A stretch of 22,524 nt of DNA, taken from the IMG/VR virus record IMGVR_UViG_3300050015_000148, positions 1 through 22,524 of that record; one strand, given 5' to 3'. Within the stretch, counting starts at the first letter, position 1. Each line of letters starts with the position of its first letter. The notes under the pieces were generated by a model that was given only the letters and a program-made list of their open reading frames with translations, had not been told where the DNA came from and made no database searches. The position numbers and the translations under genes were made by a program. Source of the stretch: a virus. Shown piece after piece: positions 4,660 to 16,774 of this stretch.

Positions 4660-4786
4660 ATTGTGAAATCCTTTGAATAGAGATAGATGCATAGAAGAAA
4701 GTAATGGTTCAAATCCGTTCTTGCCCACCAAACGGGCGAGTAGTATAACGGCAGTACAGCAACTATGTAGAACAATGTGAAATCCT
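4660..4786 (+). tRNA. Second permuted tRNA type, flanked by direct repeats
   Basis: The T arm AATGG-TTCAAAT-CCGTT (4703-4719), acceptor strand CTTGCCC, A and CCA (4728-4730) are followed after AAC by acceptor strand GGGCGAG (4734-4740), TA and D arm GTAT-AACGGCA-GTAC. The acceptor strands pair over 7 bp, and no other 5' or 3' half exists nearby. CTATG (4763-4767) and CATAG (4690-4694) could be the anticodon stem. The direct repeat TGTGAAATCCT occurs at 4662 and 4776, and ATTGT/ACAAT can close the element. The anticodon is not readable. The flanks differ from those at 3903 and 4103. Confidence 0.7.
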
Positions 4787-4805
4787 CTTTAATTTCCTTT
4801 TAGAT

Positions 4806-4833
4806 TTGACAAAAACCTAAAATATGGTATAGT
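4806..4833 (+). promoter_or_regulatory. Sigma70-type promoter
   Basis: TTGACA, 16-nt spacer, TATAGT, 45 bases upstream of the HNH gene at 4879, which is followed by tRNA-Leu(TAG). Confidence 0.7.
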
Positions 4834-4878
4834 TACAAATATATGATAACAAAAAAAGAAATTTAATTATATATTAAT

Positions 4879-5370
4879 ATGAAATATACCAAAGAGATAC
4901 TAGAACCACTTACAAGAAAAAGTGAATGTATTGTTGATATAATACGAAGACTTGGACTTCGAGAATCGGGAGGAACTCATTCTCATATTTCTAGAAAACT
5001 AAAAGAATACGAAATTGACACCACACATTTTGTTGGAAAGTCTATTGCAAGAGGAAGAAATCATCCTAATCAAAAGCGAGGATGGAAAGATATTCTCGTG
5101 TTACGATCCATAGGAACACGGCAACACGCAACTTATTTGAGAAGGTCTCTAATTGAAAGTGGTCGAAAATATGTATGTGAAACTTGTGGTCTTAATCCAA
5201 TGTGGAATGGCAAAGAATTACGATTTCAAGTTGACCATAAAAACAAAAATTGGTTAGATGACCGTGCCGAGAATTTACAATTTATTTGCCCAAACTGTCA
5301 TACACAAACAGAAGGATATAATGGATCAAAAGGAAAATCGTCGATTATAGCAGGACATTGGGGGAAATAA
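4879..5370 (+). CDS. HNH endonuclease, paralogue of the gene at 3341
   Basis: A 163-residue protein. The N-terminal third probably binds DNA and ends in IDTTHFVGKSIARG. A basic stretch (NQKRGWKDIL) leads to the HNH domain: Cys100/Cys103 in CETCG, WNGKELRFQVDHKNKN with catalytic Asp119-His120, and the ENLQFICPNCHTQT block with Cys137/Cys140/His141. The family is a common phage HNH nuclease. It is driven by the promoter at 4806. The stop codon ends one base before tRNA-Leu(TAG), so the gene fills the space up to the tRNA exactly. Confidence 0.88.
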   Translation: MKYTKEILEPLTRKSECIVDIIRRLGLRESGGTHSHISRKLKEYEIDTTHFVGKSIARGRNHPNQKRGWKDILVLRSIGTRQHATYLRRSLIESGRKYVCETCGLNPMWNGKELRFQVDHKNKNWLDDRAENLQFICPNCHTQTEGYNGSKGKSSIIAGHWGK

Positions 5371-5371
5371 T

Positions 5372-5448
5372 GGCACCTTAGACCAAGAGCAGGAGTCACC
5401 ACCCTTAGAAGGTGGACAGTGCGGTTGCAACCACCGCAGGTGCCACCA
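5372..5448 (+). tRNA. tRNA with Leu anticodon TAG, short variable loop
   Basis: The acceptor GGCACCT pairs perfectly with AGGTGCC. The D region TAGACCAAGAGCAGGAGTCA is near-identical in layout to the tRNA-like gene at 3032. The anticodon arm is CCACC-CTTAGAA-GGTGG, anticodon TAG. The T arm GCGGT-TGCAACC-ACCGC has G55. CCA is encoded. The variable loop is ACAGT (5 nt), unlike the long arm of bacterial tRNA-Leu, so the amino acid it carries is uncertain. Confidence 0.85.
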
Positions 5449-5459
5449 ATTTAAAATTT

Positions 5460-5603
5460 ATGGAAGATATATGTCAATATTGTTATTTACCAATCGGTAG
5501 TTGTATATGTTTTGATGAAGATGACGAAACCGATGAAGAAAGATTAGAACGTCAACAAGCAATGGATGGATTAATTAATGCTTGGGAAATGTCAGGATTT
5601 TAA
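5460..5603 (+). CDS. Small acidic zinc-binding protein, 47 aa
   Basis: I do not recognise the family. The 47 residues open with MEDICQYCYLPIGSCICF: a CxxC plus CxC arrangement that could bind one zinc ion. A strongly acidic stretch (DEDDETDEERLE) and a helical tail follow. The start at 5460 is chosen because the longer frame runs back into the tRNA-Leu. It is followed after one base by the gene at 5605, probably in one transcript. Confidence 0.65.
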   Translation: MEDICQYCYLPIGSCICFDEDDETDEERLERQQAMDGLINAWEMSGF

Positions 5604-5604
5604 T

Positions 5605-5826
5605 ATGAATAGAAATATACAAATTAAACAAACAAAAGAGTATATTGAATTTCTGGAAAAGAGATTAAATAGTAAACACTTTTTATCTCGGGCAACTCCC
5701 GAAGAAATTACAAAAACAAAAGACAAGCTTAAAAAAGCAAGATTGGTTGTTAAAGTTTCATCGGAACAACTTGCTTCCGAAAATATACGGTCAGATCGTA
5801 ACCATCGCAAAAGACTACCATTTTAA
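5605..5826 (+). CDS. Unknown basic helical protein, 73 aa
   Basis: Not recognised. The sequence is highly charged with heptad-like leucines in the first half (IEFLEKRLN, KTKDKLKKARL), suggesting a short coiled coil or helical hairpin, and a basic tail (RSDRNHRKRLPF) that could touch nucleic acid. The start codon lies one base after the stop of the preceding small gene, so the two are probably co-translated. Confidence 0.65.
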   Translation: MNRNIQIKQTKEYIEFLEKRLNSKHFLSRATPEEITKTKDKLKKARLVVKVSSEQLASENIRSDRNHRKRLPF

Positions 5827-5856
5827 CATTCTATAGATATATTAAAATAATTTATA

Positions 5857-6219
5857 ATGAGAACTTGGATAAAACAGTTACCAAAAAAACATAATTGTGG
5901 ACCCATTGCAGTTGCCGTAATTGCAGAAGTATCATTGGAAGAAGCTGTTAAAGCAATTGGAAAAAAAGGTTCTACTACAACCAAACAACTAGCTAATGGA
6001 TTAAGAAAATTTGGATTTAAATGTCCAAACAAATGTCGAAGAATACCAAATCCATTATTAGGAATTGGACAATTAAAAGATCCAAAACGTAAAAGTGGAT
6101 GGCATTGGATAGTTGTAGATGGTGATAAAATCTTTGATGGTATCCACGGTAATCCAGATGGAACTGTTAATTGGCAACCATCGTGGAAGATTACATCATA
6201 TCTTCCAATAACAAAATAA
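5857..6219 (+). CDS. C39/papain-like cysteine peptidase domain protein
   Basis: A 120-residue protein with the hallmarks of a minimal papain-like fold: NCGPIAVAVIAE, where Cys14 would be the nucleophile at the start of the central helix, and GWHWIVVDGDKIFDG, where His83 and a following Asp would complete the site. Peptidase C39-like proteins and related transglutaminase-fold enzymes have this layout. There is no signal peptide. It could process a phage or host protein, or be an inactive relative. The neighbours give no clear hint: small unknown genes upstream and a tRNA downstream. Confidence 0.65.
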   Translation: MRTWIKQLPKKHNCGPIAVAVIAEVSLEEAVKAIGKKGSTTTKQLANGLRKFGFKCPNKCRRIPNPLLGIGQLKDPKRKSGWHWIVVDGDKIFDGIHGNPDGTVNWQPSWKITSYLPITK

Positions 6220-6224
6220 TTTAA

Positions 6225-6325
6225 CGTCCTGAGTCAGTTCATAAGGGCAGGATGAATAGTGGAATATATAAATGTGAGGCAATCACAACTTGTTCGAATT
6301 ATCCTCTCCACTCGGGATAATTCTA
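6225..6325 (+). ncRNA. Structured intergenic region before tRNA-Arg
   Basis: It contains TCCTG/CAGGA, hairpin TGTGA-GGCAA-TCACA, AGTGGA/TCCACT and, at the 3' end, a perfect 9-bp stem GAATTATCC/GGATAATTC. A T-loop-like GTTCGAAT lies in the middle without a T stem. It may be a rearranged tRNA-like RNA or a terminator for the upstream gene; no full cloverleaf can be drawn. Confidence 0.35.
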
Positions 6326-6336
6326 TAAAATTTAAT

Positions 6337-6412
6337 GGTCTGATGGTGAAAATGGATATCATAACGCACTTCTAATGCATAGTTCTGGGTTCAATTCCCA
6401 GTCGGACCACCA
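6337..6412 (+). tRNA. tRNA-Arg (TCT)
   Basis: The acceptor GGTCTGA pairs with TCGGACC. The anticodon loop CTTCTAA gives anticodon TCT; its stem has one C-A mismatch (ACGCA/TGCAT). The T arm CTGGG-TTCAATT-CCCAG is canonical. CCA is encoded. AGA is usually the dominant Arg codon in AT-rich phages. Confidence 0.85.
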
Positions 6413-6420
6413 TTTTAAGT

Positions 6421-6448
6421 TTGACATTCTAATAAAACAAAGTATAAT
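6421..6448 (+). promoter_or_regulatory. Sigma70 promoter giving a near-leaderless mRNA
   Basis: TTGACA, 16-nt spacer, TATAAT. The ATG of the next gene is only 8 bases after the -10 box, so transcription should begin within a base or two of the start codon. Confidence 0.8.
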
Positions 6449-6456
6449 AGTTACAT

Positions 6457-6963
6457 ATGATTGAAACCTTAAGTACAATATTTGTTGTAGGAACCGTTTG
6501 GTTCTGGATTACCTGTTTAGTTGCGAGTGTAATAATCACTGCCACTGTAGAAAATGATAATTATGTTGCTCCCACTATAATTTCTATTATTTTAGGAATT
6601 GCATATTGGAAATATCTTTCATTAATTTCGTGGCAAGCATTTGTTATCGGAATAAGTGTTTATATTGTGGTTGGAATGATATGGTCCACATATAGATGGT
6701 ATAATTGGGTTTGTAAAAGAGTATCGGAATATAAAGAAGATCATGGAAGAAAATCAACATTTACTACAGATCAAAAAGAATATTTAATAAGTGACGTTAC
6801 TGTTTATCATCACAAAGATCAAATTATTGCGTGGATAATGTTTTGGCCATGGTCAATGATATGGAATTTAACAGGAGACTTTTTCAATATGGTTTATTAC
6901 TCTATGATTGGTATTTATGATAAAATATCAAAGAAAGCATTGAGTAAATTTGATATAGAATAA
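6457..6963 (+). CDS. Multi-pass membrane protein, 168 aa
   Basis: No family recognised. Hydrophobic segments at about residues 5-28, 38-56 and 60-78, and a fourth (IIAWIMFWPWSMIWNL) near 126-141, suggest four membrane passes, with a charged loop between passes three and four (SEYKEDHGRKS). A membrane role in the infected cell, such as exclusion or lysis support, is possible but not shown. The ATG sits 8 bases after a consensus -10 box, so its mRNA should be leaderless. The tRNA-like gene at 6969 begins 5 bases after the stop. Confidence 0.75.
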   Translation: MIETLSTIFVVGTVWFWITCLVASVIITATVENDNYVAPTIISIILGIAYWKYLSLISWQAFVIGISVYIVVGMIWSTYRWYNWVCKRVSEYKEDHGRKSTFTTDQKEYLISDVTVYHHKDQIIAWIMFWPWSMIWNLTGDFFNMVYYSMIGIYDKISKKALSKFDIE

Positions 6964-6968
6964 ACAAT

Positions 6969-7051
6969 GGGCGTGTAATGGCACTCTTTCCTAAAGAGTA
7001 AGTGCATAATTGGAACTGAAAATGTGGGTTCAAATCCCACCTAGCCCACCA
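6969..7051 (+). tRNA. tRNA-Arg (CCT)-like gene with the arms out of order
   Basis: The acceptor GGGCGTG pairs (five of seven) with CTAGCCC, then A and CCA. The T arm GTGGG-TTCAAAT-CCCAC is canonical. The anticodon arm ACTCT-TTCCTAA-AGAGT (anticodon CCT) starts only 7 nt after the acceptor strand, with no D arm before it. Instead, a D-arm-like AGT-GCATAATTGGA-ACT follows the anticodon arm where the variable loop should be. The order is acceptor, anticodon, D, T. Confidence 0.65.
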
Positions 7052-7065
7052 ATTTAAATAAAATT

Positions 7066-7269
7066 ATGATGGAAATAATAGGATGTAAAAATTGTGGGAA
7101 GGAACATATTCCAATGGATGAAATAAGTGTTAATGTAATATTTATGAAACATTCTTGGTGTAAAGAATGTTATCAAACTAATACAGTTAAACAAGAATAT
7201 TTTTTCTGTTCACCCGATTGTTTTCAAAAATATATAAAAAATAATGTTTTAGAATGGGATTCTAAATGA
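7066..7269 (+). CDS. Small zinc-ribbon protein, 67 aa
   Basis: Six cysteines in pairs: CKNC near residue 7, CKEC near 33, and C-SPDC near 48, plus nearby His. This spacing fits one or two zinc sites of a zinc ribbon or treble clef. No catalytic motif is seen. It overlaps the next gene, also a CxxC protein, by 4 bases (ATGA), so the two are probably translationally coupled. A second Met follows the first directly. Confidence 0.7.
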   Translation: MMEIIGCKNCGKEHIPMDEISVNVIFMKHSWCKECYQTNTVKQEYFFCSPDCFQKYIKNNVLEWDSK

Positions 7270-7502
7270 AATCATTTCAAACGGTTACAACAAAAACATA
7301 TACCCCTATCTGGATTCACCAAGAGTTTTCGGTATATGATAAACAATTCATTAATATTCGGAGCAGAATGAAATATAAAGCAGATACATGTATTAAATGT
7401 AATCATAAATTTGAGTTAAATGAAATGATAGGGTTAGGTTGTTTTGAAAATATTGGAAATAAAATGTTATGTCAAAAATGTGCAAAAGAATTAATGGAAT
7501 AA
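7266..7502 (+). CDS. Small zinc-binding protein, 78 aa
   Basis: The C-terminal half has CIKCNHKFEL and CQKCAKELME, two CxxC knuckles about 25 residues apart, the usual layout of a zinc ribbon. The N-terminal half (ITTKTYTPIWIHQEFSVYD-like, beta-rich) has no recognised motif. It starts inside the stop codon of the gene at 7066. The role is unknown; a partner or adaptor for nucleic acid or protein binding is plausible. Confidence 0.7.
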   Translation: MKSFQTVTTKTYTPIWIHQEFSVYDKQFINIRSRMKYKADTCIKCNHKFELNEMIGLGCFENIGNKMLCQKCAKELME

Positions 7503-7503
7503 G

Positions 7504-7531
7504 TTGACATCATTTGAATTTTAGATTATAT
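7504..7531 (+). promoter_or_regulatory. Sigma70-type promoter for the tRNA-Ser cluster
   Basis: TTGACA, 16-nt spacer, TTATAT (weak -10), 17 bases before tRNA-Ser(TGA). Confidence 0.55.
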
Positions 7532-7548
7532 TTATACACAGATAGAAC

Positions 7549-7638
7549 GGTAGGTTAACTGGACAGGCGTGCCAGGACCGACTTGAAATCGGATCGCACC
7601 CGAAAGGGTGTGGGTTTCGACTACTCAGCCTACCGCCA
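7549..7638 (+). tRNA. tRNA-Ser (TGA)
   Basis: The acceptor GGTAGGT pairs with GCCTACC, discriminator G, CCA encoded. The D arm is CTGG...CCAG. The anticodon arm is CCGA-CTTGAAA-TCGG, anticodon TGA. The variable arm has the GAAA hairpin ACCC/GGGT. The T arm is TGGGT-TTCGACT-ACTCA. All are standard class II Ser features. Confidence 0.92.
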
Positions 7639-7649
7639 ATTTTATAAAC

Positions 7650-7747
7650 GTGCCGCACAGTGACCGAGGAAGAGCCGAAAGGTCAGTACACGTTAGACAG
7701 AGTAGTAAGTCGAACTCTAGGGCAGGTTAATATCTGCAATGCGGCAC
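7650..7747 (+). ncRNA. 98-nt cloverleaf-like RNA that is not a tRNA
   Basis: A perfect 8-bp outer stem GTGCCGCA (7650-7657) / TGCGGCAC (7740-7747) encloses three arms: TGACC/GGTCA, AGAGT/ACTCT and GCAG/CTGC. There is no anticodon loop, T loop or CCA. The last arm holds GGCAGGTTAATAT (7721-7733), shared exactly with the 23S-like ncRNA at 1298. AGTCGAA precedes it in both. From memory, CAGGTTAATATTCCTG is a conserved 23S rRNA hairpin, so this may be a second rRNA mimic. Confidence 0.6.
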
Positions 7748-7758
7748 ATTAAATTTAT

Positions 7759-7834
7759 GCGCCAATGGCACAGTGGCTACTGCGTCTCTCTTACACGGAG
7801 ATTCCCACAGGTTCGAGTCCTGTTTGGCGTACCA
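7759..7834 (+). tRNA. tRNA-Val (TAC)
   Basis: The acceptor GCGCCAA pairs with TTGGCGT. The anticodon arm is TCTCT-CTTACAC-GGAGA, anticodon TAC. The T arm ACAGG-TTCGAGT-CCTGT is canonical. CCA is encoded. Confidence 0.9.
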
Positions 7835-7855
7835 TCTTAAACAAATCATTCTAAT

Positions 7856-7918
7856 GTGAGCATGAGCCGAGTGGTTCAATCTACAGGCAAAGAACTGTGC
7901 CAAACTTTGAATGTGACT
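7856..7918 (+). pseudogene. Orphan tRNA 5' half, class II type
   Basis: TGAGCAT is followed by GCCGAGTGGTTCAATCTACA and GGC, a clear Ser/Leu-type D arm. CAAAG/CTTTG could then be an anticodon stem around a 12-nt loop. No T arm or acceptor 3' strand follows before tRNA-Ser(GCT). It is either a remnant or half of a split gene whose 3' half lies outside the window. Confidence 0.5.
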
Positions 7919-7940
7919 TATTATTTCAATATGAAATTAT

Positions 7941-8032
7941 GGAAACGTGGCAGAGTTTGGTTTATTGTATCTCTTTGCTAAAGAGACGTGGCGTTAAAAC
8001 CACCGCTGGTTCGAATCCAGCCGTTTCCGCCA
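7941..8032 (+). tRNA. tRNA-Ser (GCT)
   Basis: The acceptor GGAAACG pairs perfectly with CGTTTCC, discriminator G, CCA encoded. The anticodon arm is TCTCT-TTGCTAA-AGAGA, anticodon GCT. The variable arm is GTGG/CCAC. The T arm GCTGG-TTCGAAT-CCAGC is canonical. Confidence 0.92.
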
Positions 8033-8053
8033 ATTTAAATAAAGTTATATGTT

Positions 8054-8323
8054 ATGAGTAAAAAGAAAAACAAAAAACATAAACGCAAAGCACTTAAACC
8101 CACAATTGGAGATTTACATGTTAATGGTACAAATGGTGATTCACAATGGTATGTATTTGAAGTTGTGGATGTTATAGAACCAGTTAGTGAAAATGGAAAA
8201 ATATTTTCTTGGATGGTTAATGCTAAAAATTTAAGGACGAACGAAATACAATTAATGCAAGTTGGATTAGCAATTTTTAAATCCCCACTGTATGAAGGTA
8301 GAAGAGATTTAGCAAAGTTATGA
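8054..8323 (+). CDS. Unknown protein with lysine-rich N-terminus, 89 aa
   Basis: Not recognised. It starts with a very basic tail (MSKKKNKKHKRKALKP) followed by a compact beta-rich domain (WYVFEVVDVIEPV, FSWMVNAKNLRT). This suggests a small nucleic-acid- or ribosome-binding protein, which is inference only. Its stop codon overlaps the ATG of the next gene (ATGA), showing an operon with 8320, 8482 and 8809. Confidence 0.68.
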   Translation: MSKKKNKKHKRKALKPTIGDLHVNGTNGDSQWYVFEVVDVIEPVSENGKIFSWMVNAKNLRTNEIQLMQVGLAIFKSPLYEGRRDLAKL

Positions 8324-8478
8324 ATGAAAATAAGAATGAAAACATTGCATTAGATGATGTTGATATATGTCCTCATTGCGGAACAATTATTGGTATGTTT
8401 AAAAACCATAATTGTTTCATGAAACATTTACATGAACAAATGGAAACAAAACGTAAACGTAAAAAACACCACAAATAA
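8320..8478 (+). CDS. Tiny C2H2-like zinc-finger protein, 52 aa
   Basis: A short frame with ATGA overlap to the gene before it. Residues 17-20 are CPHC, followed by His30, Cys32, His36 and His38 (NHNCFMKHLH), a zinc-finger-like set of ligands. The tail KRKRKKHHK is very basic, so nucleic-acid binding is likely. Small size and the perfect 4-base overlap support translation. It ends 3 bases before the next start. Confidence 0.65.
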   Translation: MNENKNENIALDDVDICPHCGTIIGMFKNHNCFMKHLHEQMETKRKRKKHHK

Positions 8479-8481
8479 GTT

Positions 8482-8805
8482 ATGAAGACTGTTCCTTATA
8501 CTACAGAACAATATATTACGTGTTTTGAATATGGTGCCACGGGTGAAGGTCAGACATATGAAATAATGTTTTGTTATGCTAAATCTATTAAAGAAGCAGT
8601 AAGTAAACATTTTAAAAAGTTTGAGTATAAAACCAAAGAACAACGTGAGTTTTGTAAAATTGGACTTTCTATAATGAAGGCAGATTCTGCTCCTGCACGG
8701 AAATTATTATCACGATTTTTTAATGATAGTAAACAAATGGATTATGCAATTAAAGAGAATGCAATGTTCGAATTTTATTATAAATTTCACTTTAATTTTA
8801 GTTAA
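8482..8805 (+). CDS. Unknown protein, 107 aa
   Basis: Not recognised. It is a mixed alpha/beta protein without cysteine pairs, signal peptide or membrane segment. The N-terminus (VPYTTEQYITCFEYGATGEG) looks like a strand-turn region and the rest is helical. Tight spacing on both sides (3 bases before, 3 after) places it in the small-gene operon 8054-8997. Confidence 0.65.
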   Translation: MKTVPYTTEQYITCFEYGATGEGQTYEIMFCYAKSIKEAVSKHFKKFEYKTKEQREFCKIGLSIMKADSAPARKLLSRFFNDSKQMDYAIKENAMFEFYYKFHFNFS

Positions 8806-8808
8806 TAT

Positions 8809-8997
8809 ATGAAATCTAAATGGCCAACTTTGGAAGGAAGACTGAATAATCCATTAAGTTCTAGAAAAGAAGCATTATTACAACTAAAACAAAATGGAAT
8901 GATACTTTCAAAATCGGCTCAAAAAGAGTTAGATAGATTATTAAAAAAAGATAAATTAACGGAGGATGCTATGTCAATGCCAAACGCAGATCAGTAA
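8809..8997 (+). CDS. Unknown small helical protein, 62 aa
   Basis: Not recognised. The sequence is helical and charged (RKEALLQLKQNG, SAQKELDRLLKKDKL), without cysteines or a membrane segment. It follows the previous gene after 3 bases and is the last tightly packed member of the operon that begins at 8054. Confidence 0.6.
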   Translation: MKSKWPTLEGRLNNPLSSRKEALLQLKQNGMILSKSAQKELDRLLKKDKLTEDAMSMPNADQ

Positions 8998-9011
8998 TTA
9001 GGGAAACATTT

Positions 9012-9380
9012 TTGGAGAACTGGAATTTATATATAAATTTTCCAAGAATGTTACAATGTGGGAATCATGAAATACCAATATATGACCCCGAAGGTGAAGA
9101 TGGAAAATACAGTTTTGTTTGTTTAGAAAATGGAATGTTCGTTCCAACAAAAGAATGGGATTTAGTTAAAAGAGTTATGGAAGGTAAAAAATCTGTTAAT
9201 TTACAAATAAAATTGTGGGCAAATGATTTAGGATATTTACTGATGCCTGATGAATTATCTAATTATTGTAAAGAGTATCCTAAATGGGTATTCAAAGCAA
9301 CAATGGAACAGGCTCAGAAACGGATTATAAAAGAAGTAGGATTTATCCCTTCTTTTGTGAGGTTTGGAGACGTTACCTAA
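9012..9380 (+). CDS. Unknown protein, 122 aa, possible TTG start
   Basis: Not recognised. The frame opens at a TTG (9012), 14 bases after the previous stop. The first ATG in frame is at 9048 and would drop 12 residues (MENWNLYINFPR). The body (PIYDPEGEDGKYSFVCLENGM near the N-terminus, a helical C-terminal half) looks globular and soluble. No Shine-Dalgarno helps choose the start. It ends just before a tRNA-like hairpin region. Confidence 0.6.
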   Translation: MENWNLYINFPRMLQCGNHEIPIYDPEGEDGKYSFVCLENGMFVPTKEWDLVKRVMEGKKSVNLQIKLWANDLGYLLMPDELSNYCKEYPKWVFKATMEQAQKRIIKEVGFIPSFVRFGDVT

Positions 9381-9384
9381 ATGT

Positions 9385-9436
9385 CGCTCCTCACCGCCTT
9401 ATGGCGTGTGATAAGGCTTCAATTCCTGTGAGCCGG
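9385..9436 (+). ncRNA. Collapsed tRNA-like hairpin
   Basis: CTCAC (9390-9394) pairs with GTGAG (9428-9432) around GCCTTAT-GGCGTGTG-ATAAGGC, a 7-bp stem with an 8-nt loop. GGCTTCAATTCC in the 3' part resembles a T arm with one extra base, and GTGAGCC resembles an acceptor strand. It is probably a tRNA remnant or a miniature tRNA-like RNA. Confidence 0.35.
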
Positions 9437-9453
9437 ATTTAATCATGGGATAT

Positions 9454-9527
9454 GAGTAAGTAGTATAAAAGTAGTACATTACAGTGACAATGTAAAAACA
9501 ATGGGGCGGTACCATTCTTATTCACCA
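9454..9527 (+). tRNA. tRNA-Val (GAC)
   Basis: The acceptor GAGTAAG pairs with CTTATTC; the D arm is GTAT-AAAAGTA-GTAC. The anticodon arm is TTACA-GTGACAA-TGTAA, anticodon GAC. The T arm AATGG-GGCGGTA-CCATT has the same odd GGCGGTA loop as tRNA-Ala(CGC). CCA is encoded. Confidence 0.85.
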
Positions 9528-9534
9528 TTTTTAG

Positions 9535-9562
9535 TTGACTATATTCTAAAATGTGGTATTAT
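9535..9562 (+). promoter_or_regulatory. Sigma70-type promoter for the 9574 operon
   Basis: TTGACT, 16-nt spacer, TATTAT, 11 bases before the ATG at 9574. Confidence 0.65.
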
Positions 9563-9573
9563 GTTTTATTAAT

Positions 9574-9819
9574 ATGAATGAAAAAAATCTATCAGAAGAA
9601 ACTCGTGCTTTAGTAGAGAAGTGGGAAAAGTCGGGATTGCTTGATAAAAATGCCATTGACAAAAATCAAAAAATGGCTATACTATTGGCAAGTTATTCAA
9701 CCTTAATCATGGAAGATGGTACAAGAATAGATTACATGAATGAGGAAGAGAAACAGAAAAAATTAAAAGAATACAATTATGGGAAATTTACGAAAAATGC
9801 AGCGCAATCTCCAACCTAA
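9574..9819 (+). CDS. Unknown acidic protein, 81 aa
   Basis: Not recognised. It is helical and charged (LSEETRALVEKWEKSGLLD, MNEEEKQKKLKEYN), soluble, with no cysteine. The start at 9574 is chosen because it lies just downstream of the promoter at 9535; an upstream ATG at 9553 would fall inside the -10 region. First gene of an operon that runs to about 10663. Confidence 0.68.
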   Translation: MNEKNLSEETRALVEKWEKSGLLDKNAIDKNQKMAILLASYSTLIMEDGTRIDYMNEEEKQKKLKEYNYGKFTKNAAQSPT

Positions 9820-16770: not shown

Positions 16771-16774
16771 ATGT

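Follow-up and report, generated by a model that had tools for sequence, protein, structure and literature searches.

A permuted transfer RNA-like unit within a conserved RNA frame in the tRNA array of a viral contig

The DNA considered here is a 22.5-kb IMG/VR viral contig (IMGVR_UViG_3300050015_000148, positions 1-22,524; "the window" means this whole stretch), whose first 9.6 kb hold an array of transfer RNA (tRNA) genes interrupted by HNH endonuclease genes. Within the array lies the element in question, a unit in which the two halves of a tRNA-like body stand in permuted order. It is the second of two tandem copies of a conserved RNA frame that we call M2; another frame, M1, lies nearby and encloses further permuted tRNAs. 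The window was compared with related records, given here by L and G numbers, among them the syntenic contigs G001, G002, and G003, and PhoH is about 75% identical at the protein level in G001 and G002. A search of sequenced phage isolates with the window found no near relative, and a related-loci search with a 684-amino-acid protein gave no result.

In the permuted unit, the 3′ half of the tRNA-like body precedes the 5′ half, the acceptor strands are complementary, and the T and D arms are properly formed, which is the order of a permuted tRNA gene. The T stem and loop read AATGG-TTCAAAT-CCGTT (4703-4719) and lead into the acceptor 3′ strand CTTGCCC (4720-4726), A73, and CCA (4728-4730); the acceptor 5′ strand GGGCGAG (4734-4740) and TA are followed by the D arm GTATAACGGCAGTAC (4743-4757). 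A preliminary description of this stretch had proposed a T arm, CTTGCCC-A-CCA-AAC-GGGCGAG, and a D arm in this order, with a 7-bp acceptor. We find the order as described at 4690-4767, recurring in related phages with compensating acceptor changes, and the acceptor does pair over 7 bp (six Watson-Crick pairs and one G-U). A scanner requiring a T arm, CCA, acceptor pairing, a D stem, and a closing stem picked out two units of the window, this one and its neighbor at 4102-4234; it had no match in 1.05 Mb of dinucleotide-shuffled sequence drawn from the window and three relatives.

Neither half of the window unit contains a detectable anticodon arm or U33. When the halves are joined, ARAGORN reports an undefined tRNA and not a complete cloverleaf with an anticodon. 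A bulge-helix-bulge was looked for in the unit and not found, P1 being a continuous 7-bp helix. When the unit-2 sequences of the window, L083, and L136 and one M1 unit were doubled, ARAGORN (introns allowed) read a tRNA across the junction, and it did so in 0 of 590 shuffled units treated alike; the anticodons named in this test were inconsistent and are not relied on. A BLAST search of the same genomes with both halves of the window unit detected no parent tRNA. That the halves derive from different tRNAs is rejected: the acceptor and P1 strands pair and covary, and M1 units give tRNAs more often from their own halves than from swapped ones, as described below.

The frame around this body is M2, which runs P0 (..NNGAG), AT, AGAY, P1, (G)GAACA, P2, GTGAA, AT, C, and P0′ (CTCNN..). 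Two M2 units lie side by side in the window (Table 1), both ending in GTGAAATCC, which pattern scans and the three syntenic contigs identify as half of the conserved M2 motif. The first carries a complete tRNA-like cloverleaf attached to P1 via its acceptor stem, and its minimum-energy fold (RNAfold) recovers P0, P1, three tRNA arms, and P2. The anticodon-type loop of this cloverleaf, GATTCAA, has A in place of U33. The 11-bp repeat that had been noted on both sides of the permuted tRNA, TGTGAAATCCT, does occur exactly twice, at 4662 and 4776, 114 bases apart, each copy being the 3′ strand of one M2 unit. The first copy thus belongs to the preceding unit, and the permuted unit is not flanked by both copies as had been thought; its real limits are about 4679 and about 4788. 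ATTGT/ACAAT, suggested as a closing helix, is present in the window and is not retained in most relatives, where the conserved closing helices are P0 and P1. In other phages the repeat strand likewise comes once per unit, including units with no permuted tRNA (L135, L150, and L022). In L135 M2 is nearly empty (GAGATAGACATTTGGAACAGTGTGAAATCCTC), and the frame therefore has a role apart from its cargo.

Pairing in M2 is supported by covariation. We aligned 17 units from ten records and computed covariation over 16; in these, P0 and P1 are paired in 86% of cells, and 38 cells have changed on both sides, compared to 13.8 in shuffles. The covariation score of 0.518 (0.184 in shuffles) was reached by 0 of 500 shuffles, and slid structures gave no score above 0.148. 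Since P0 pairing was part of the detector, M2 candidates were picked again by sequence alone; 13 of these 74 have a perfect 5-bp P0, with 1.4 expected from shuffled partners. In simple pattern scans, real loci made up 3 of 14 matches for AGATACGNACAGCAAGA and 2 of 25 for AATCCTYTGAN{2,6}GAGATAGA, the rest being mostly coding chance matches, and ACAGCAAGAAAAN{3,8}TATGTYAA gave zero new real loci.

The tandem pair recurs in six phage records (the window, L083, L088, L136, L203, and L157), always with the permuted tRNA in unit 2. The acceptor strands of the permuted bodies co-vary (GGGCGAG/CTTGCCC, GGGGAGG/CTTCCCC, GGGGAAG/CTTCCCC, GGGCAGG/CTTGCCC, and GGGCCGG/CCGGCCC), with one mismatch in L203. 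As read, the unit-2 bodies lack the anticodon arm wholly, and the unit-1 anticodon-type loops either lack U33 or measure 4 to 6 nucleotides (nt) (window, L083, L088, L136, L203, L022, and L221; by reading).

Table 1. Framed RNA units of the window and their parts
Feature	Positions	Strand	Composition
M1 frame A	3902..4019	+	AAGATACG/CGTATCT, ACAGCAAGAAAAA, GNRA hairpin, A-rich strand
M1 frame B	4102..4234	+	complete permuted tRNA, acceptor GGGGAGG/CCTCCCC, A73, CCA, spacer AAT
M2 unit 1	4545..4676	+	P0 TCAGAG/CTTTGA, AT-AGAC, P1 with tRNA-like cloverleaf, GGAACA, P2 hairpin, GTGAA-AT-C
TGTGAAATCCT copy 1	4662..4672	+	3′ strand of unit 1
M2 unit 2	4679..4788	+	P0 AGAG/CTCT, ATAGA, P1 TGCATAG/CTATGTA, permuted tRNA body, GAACA, GTGAA-AT-C
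3′ half of permuted body	4690..4730	+	P1 strand, linker, T arm, acceptor 3′ CTTGCCC, A73, CCA
Intervening AAC, CCA to acceptor 5′ strand	4731..4733	+	
5′ half of permuted body	4734..4767	+	acceptor 5′ GGGCGAG, TA, D arm, linker, P1 strand
TGTGAAATCCT copy 2	4776..4786	+	3′ strand of unit 2
Third M1 frame	16774..16873	+	without tRNA body, directly downstream of tRNA-Met

The second frame, M1, consists of P0 (AGRYRC/GYRYCT) followed by ACAGCAA and A-rich strands, with a G directly after P0′ in 61 of 65 cases. A loose first detector gave 43 matches in shuffled DNA and was superseded by a strict version, with 42 matches in the first set (of which one or two may be chance) and 0 in 1.6 Mb of shuffled DNA. 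Counts of M1 P0 pairing are partly circular, the detector having demanded it; compensation in P0 is clear in L083 (3784) and L090. The cargo of M1 ranges over short hairpins, other structured RNA, tRNA-like bodies, and permuted tRNAs. On contig L090, which is listed under a Clostridia genome, eight tandem M1 frames at 4840-6085 each hold a different RNA cargo, and the last encloses a tRNA-Phe-like body. Both frames keep close to tRNA genes, the median distance to the nearest being 20 nt, on the same strand in 48 of 49 cases. By reading, 16 M1 and 6 M2 units are permuted, 22 in all, in 12 records; several of the structural readings were made by eye.

The permuted M1 units look like real tRNAs, and they fold as ordinary cloverleafs when rotated. 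In the window, the body of frame A resembles a permuted tRNA-Asp(GUC) with no acceptor stem, and frame B has the anticodon AUU after rotation. With join points picked by the analyst, ARAGORN read rotated units as tRNA-Asp(GTC) in L083, L088, and L249, Arg(ACG) in L180, Tyr(GTA) in L245, Pro(TGG) in L236, and Phe(GAA) in L088 and, at a relaxed score, L083; the second L245 unit, which can be read as Thr(TGT), has a TGTA loop and is Thr/Tyr-ambiguous. Own halves, when joined, gave a tRNA in 5 of 8 units, compared to 1 of 56 for swapped halves as a control. It is quite possible that these M1 units serve as charged, perhaps two-piece, tRNAs.

Several further features of M1 deserve record. An extra T-stem base (GGTG-T-G/CCACC type) is common to the permuted tRNAs at L180 7148, L082, L083 3784, and L088 10221. 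A subset of frames (L174, L138, L202, L099, L118, and L084) encloses a longer conserved RNA with no likeness to tRNA, which ends in CTCAGA(G)TAAACTGTAAATC or similar before P0′. A putative third frame, GAGATAGATTAGCG in L082 and L088, is instead the D loop in genes for tRNA-Phe.

Rfam offers no name for either frame: there was no match to M1 or M2 at E ≤ 5 in window positions 1-9600, a permissive scan of 3880-4820 gave them chance-level matches only, and at E ≤ 1 nothing beyond the tRNA-like parts was found in L090, L203, L209, and L190. A ribozyme identity of M1 or M2, although possible, has no Rfam match. A group I intron or a permuted intron-exon arrangement was considered and rejected, there being no Rfam intron match and a frame of only about 50 to 60 bases altogether.

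With the pairing, covariation, recurrence, and tRNA-array position of the element established, we consider it best read as a structured RNA of the phage, one domain of which is a permuted tRNA mimic that does not decode and probably serves as decoy or scaffold, and put the probability of this reading at roughly one half. The RNA, presumably transcribed together with the array, would be built of two tandem units, each an M2 junction closed by P0 and bearing its cargo on P1. The cargo of unit 2 would be the upper half of a tRNA (acceptor, T, and D arms) attached via the would-be anticodon stem; attached through this site, the tRNA has its order circularly permuted, its acceptor end becoming a closed, CCA-containing loop. 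We favor a non-decoding mimic, in the manner of the tRNA-like domain of Y RNAs, because there is no anticodon, the partner unit lacks U33, CCA is optional, and the frame is conserved. We imagine that the mimic presents its elbow and acceptor surface to host proteins that bind or cut tRNA while M2 anchors the RNA, and that the CCA loop may be cut open by RNase P and 3′ processing, leaving an RNA in two pieces. The benefit would likely be that of a decoy or scaffold against host factors that target tRNAs, a use made plausible by phage tRNAs that are known or proposed to counter tRNA-cutting defenses (PMC10264068, PMC11555353). Those tRNAs come in arrays with altered anticodon loops, and their proposed role is likewise against host tRNA nucleases, but they are ordinary linear genes, whereas the units here are framed or permuted.

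The closest known relative in shape is YrlA (RF02553), whose tRNA-like domain has been described as a circularly permuted tRNA mimic (PMC8394870, PMC11472068). Unit 2 is a permuted tRNA-like domain of this type: it shares with YrlA the order T arm, acceptor 3′ strand, closed loop, acceptor 5′ strand, D arm, and in both the domain joins the rest of the RNA at what would be the anticodon stem. The tRNA-like domain is matched by the YrlA model in L083, L088, L157, L190, and others with E values from 5e-9 to 6e-3, including the unit-2 bodies of L083 (E 2.4e-4, YrlA positions 26-82), L157 (E 5.5e-6), and L088 (positions 30-81) and an M1 body of L190 (positions 27-81, E 5.9e-5); the matches in L083, L088, and L190 end at the domain borders. 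Unlike YrlA, the phage unit has CCA in the loop and a full 7-bp acceptor with discriminator, is closed by M2 or M1 rather than by a Ro60-binding basal stem, which is absent, and lies in a tRNA array, in tandem with a second tRNA-like unit. We therefore regard it as like a Y RNA mimic in shape, yet do not file it as YrlA.

A number of observations weigh against the mimic reading. In the related records no match reached the YrlA gathering score of 69 bits, the best being 37.2 bits; the window itself has no YrlA match at E ≤ 1; and 13 of 14 control genomes match weakly at that threshold, so that only low E values count. A gene for Ro60/Rsr (TROVE) was not found in the window, G001 to G003, G033, or G039, all of which are fragments, and a host protein could serve as partner. 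Within unit 2, the window, L088, and L136 retain CCA and L083, L203, and L157 lack it, and P1 is weak in L088, L136, and L203. All records are metagenomic fragments, and a decoy function, plausible as it is, is something that we infer. As a separate observation, G015 (L227 and L229), a distant 229-kb phage record, carries genes for both Ro60/TROVE and a T4-type RNA ligase.

The strongest competitor, which we nonetheless hold to be unlikely, is a true permuted tRNA gene, in which RNase P and 3′ processing free the acceptor ends, the frame is removed or the tRNA stays an unligated two-piece molecule, and the product decodes. It draws on the M1-framed units of the same phages, with their whole anticodon loops, cloverleafs upon rotation, and the success of own over swapped halves, on the CCA and discriminator retained in many units, and on a T4-type RNA ligase in G033 (the ligase was found only there and in G015). 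Such genes have been reported from a few algae and archaea (PMC3978253, PMC3218864), where they need a bulge-helix-bulge junction, a 4-bp helix between two 3-nt bulges, and give a ligated tRNA (PMC3978253). The permuted genes of red and green algae and crenarchaea, too, have the 3′ half upstream, spacers between the acceptor ends of 1 to 74 bp (3 to 71 in the phage units), and sometimes an encoded CCA, but in the phage units conserved M1 or M2 frames replace the bulge-helix-bulge, and the window unit has no anticodon for decoding. The linkers between frame and tRNA are A rich and variable in length with no apparent splice site, which disfavors precise splicing, and RtcB was not found above the cut-off in the searched records. 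No tRNA-splicing endonuclease is known from phages.

That HNH-driven rearrangement of the array left a degenerate tRNA pseudogene here seems improbable. HNH genes do interrupt the array, several tRNAs of the window look damaged, and M1 frame A has lost its acceptor stem; yet the unit order and closing structure are common to six diverged phage records, and the idea is already weakened by covariation, with P0, P1, and the acceptor showing compensatory changes. Quite improbable as well is a reading in which M1 and M2 mark, at the DNA level, the ends of small mobile cassettes with tRNA-like cargo, the permutation being a by-product of circularization. Varied cargo, the eight tandem frames of L090, and the G after P0′ would all suit cassettes, whereas the P0 sequences vary among copies in a compensated way, which fits RNA helices and not shared ends, unpaired nucleotides (AGA, GAAC, and GTGAA) are conserved, and the strand is that of the tRNA in nearly every case.

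A permuted two-piece transfer-messenger RNA (tmRNA)-like molecule is highly improbable, although permuted tmRNA (RF04321) has a like local order of T arm, acceptor, CCA, loop, and acceptor, with the CCA end upstream of the 5′ end and a processed loop between. Its model matches M1 frame B over the T arm and acceptor only, at 22.2 bits, far under the gathering score of 47; unlike permuted tmRNA, the phage units have D arms with real stems and no tag reading frame, and at about 110 bases they are too small for one or for pseudoknots. Permuted tmRNA works in two pieces, unligated, and is a precedent for how framed permuted tRNAs might act. Finally, the tandem tRNA duplication with lost outer halves that had been proposed from the exact 11-bp repeat is barely credible, because the supposed scar is the conserved 3′ strand of M2, found once per unit in other phages with unrelated cargo, and a search of syntenic relatives found no un-permuted ancestor; the alternative offered with it, that the repeat is part of a processing signal, comes closer, in that the repeat is a structural or signal element.

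Beyond this locus, it is possible, as a tentative proposal, that large phages of this group express a whole set of circularly permuted tRNAs, clamped by the two new frames M1 and M2, charged, and used or displayed as unligated two-piece tRNAs. If so, neither phages nor bacteria would have been known to hold permuted tRNA genes before, and the maturation of these would follow a route unlike that of algae and archaea; in the part of the literature covered, we found no description of permuted tRNA genes in phages. In bacteria, this gene form has its relatives in permuted tmRNA and in the tRNA mimic of Y RNA. With a recurrent family of framed permuted tRNAs in phage tRNA arrays, how permuted tRNAs evolve and are processed could be put to the test in bacteria, and the conflict of phages with defenses that cut tRNA would gain a new type of tRNA mimic. 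M1 and M2 themselves are two named conserved RNA motifs that a covariance search could now follow widely, and the finding shows why these genes escape tRNA finders.

Other RNAs of the array are also unusual. The tRNA-like sequence at 2905-3013 of the window has CCA and an anticodon loop that holds about 40 additional bases, and at 4238-4399 tRNA-like ends (GGGGATG ... TGTCCCCACCA) enclose about 90 inserted bases, the first 28 bases of the region being 96% identical to L088 6024-6051. A tRNA-like gene at 6969-7052 (78% identical to L083 12951-13041; Rfam tRNA, 28.6 bits) seems to place an anticodon-like hairpin (loop TTCCTAA) before a D-arm-like hairpin. Among unframed tRNAs, the tRNA-Glu(TTC) at 4022-4096 has an altered anticodon loop with C33, and the Asp-like tRNA at 3033-3109 has a 6-nt anticodon loop. 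The tRNA-Phe-like gene at 3206-3284 has a T loop without TTCRA, and the Phe tRNAs of L082 and L088 have the unusual T loop AGCGTTA. Lastly, GGAAGTAGGCTTAGAAGCAGCCATC at 1301-1357 resembles the GTPase-associated center of 23S ribosomal RNA (rRNA), matching LSU_rRNA_bacteria positions 1093-1148 at 14.4 bits (E 0.019 in a 311-base search), and is a possible rRNA mimic; GTAGGCATAGAAGCTGCC, near 13392 in L083, has the same loop with one pair compensated.
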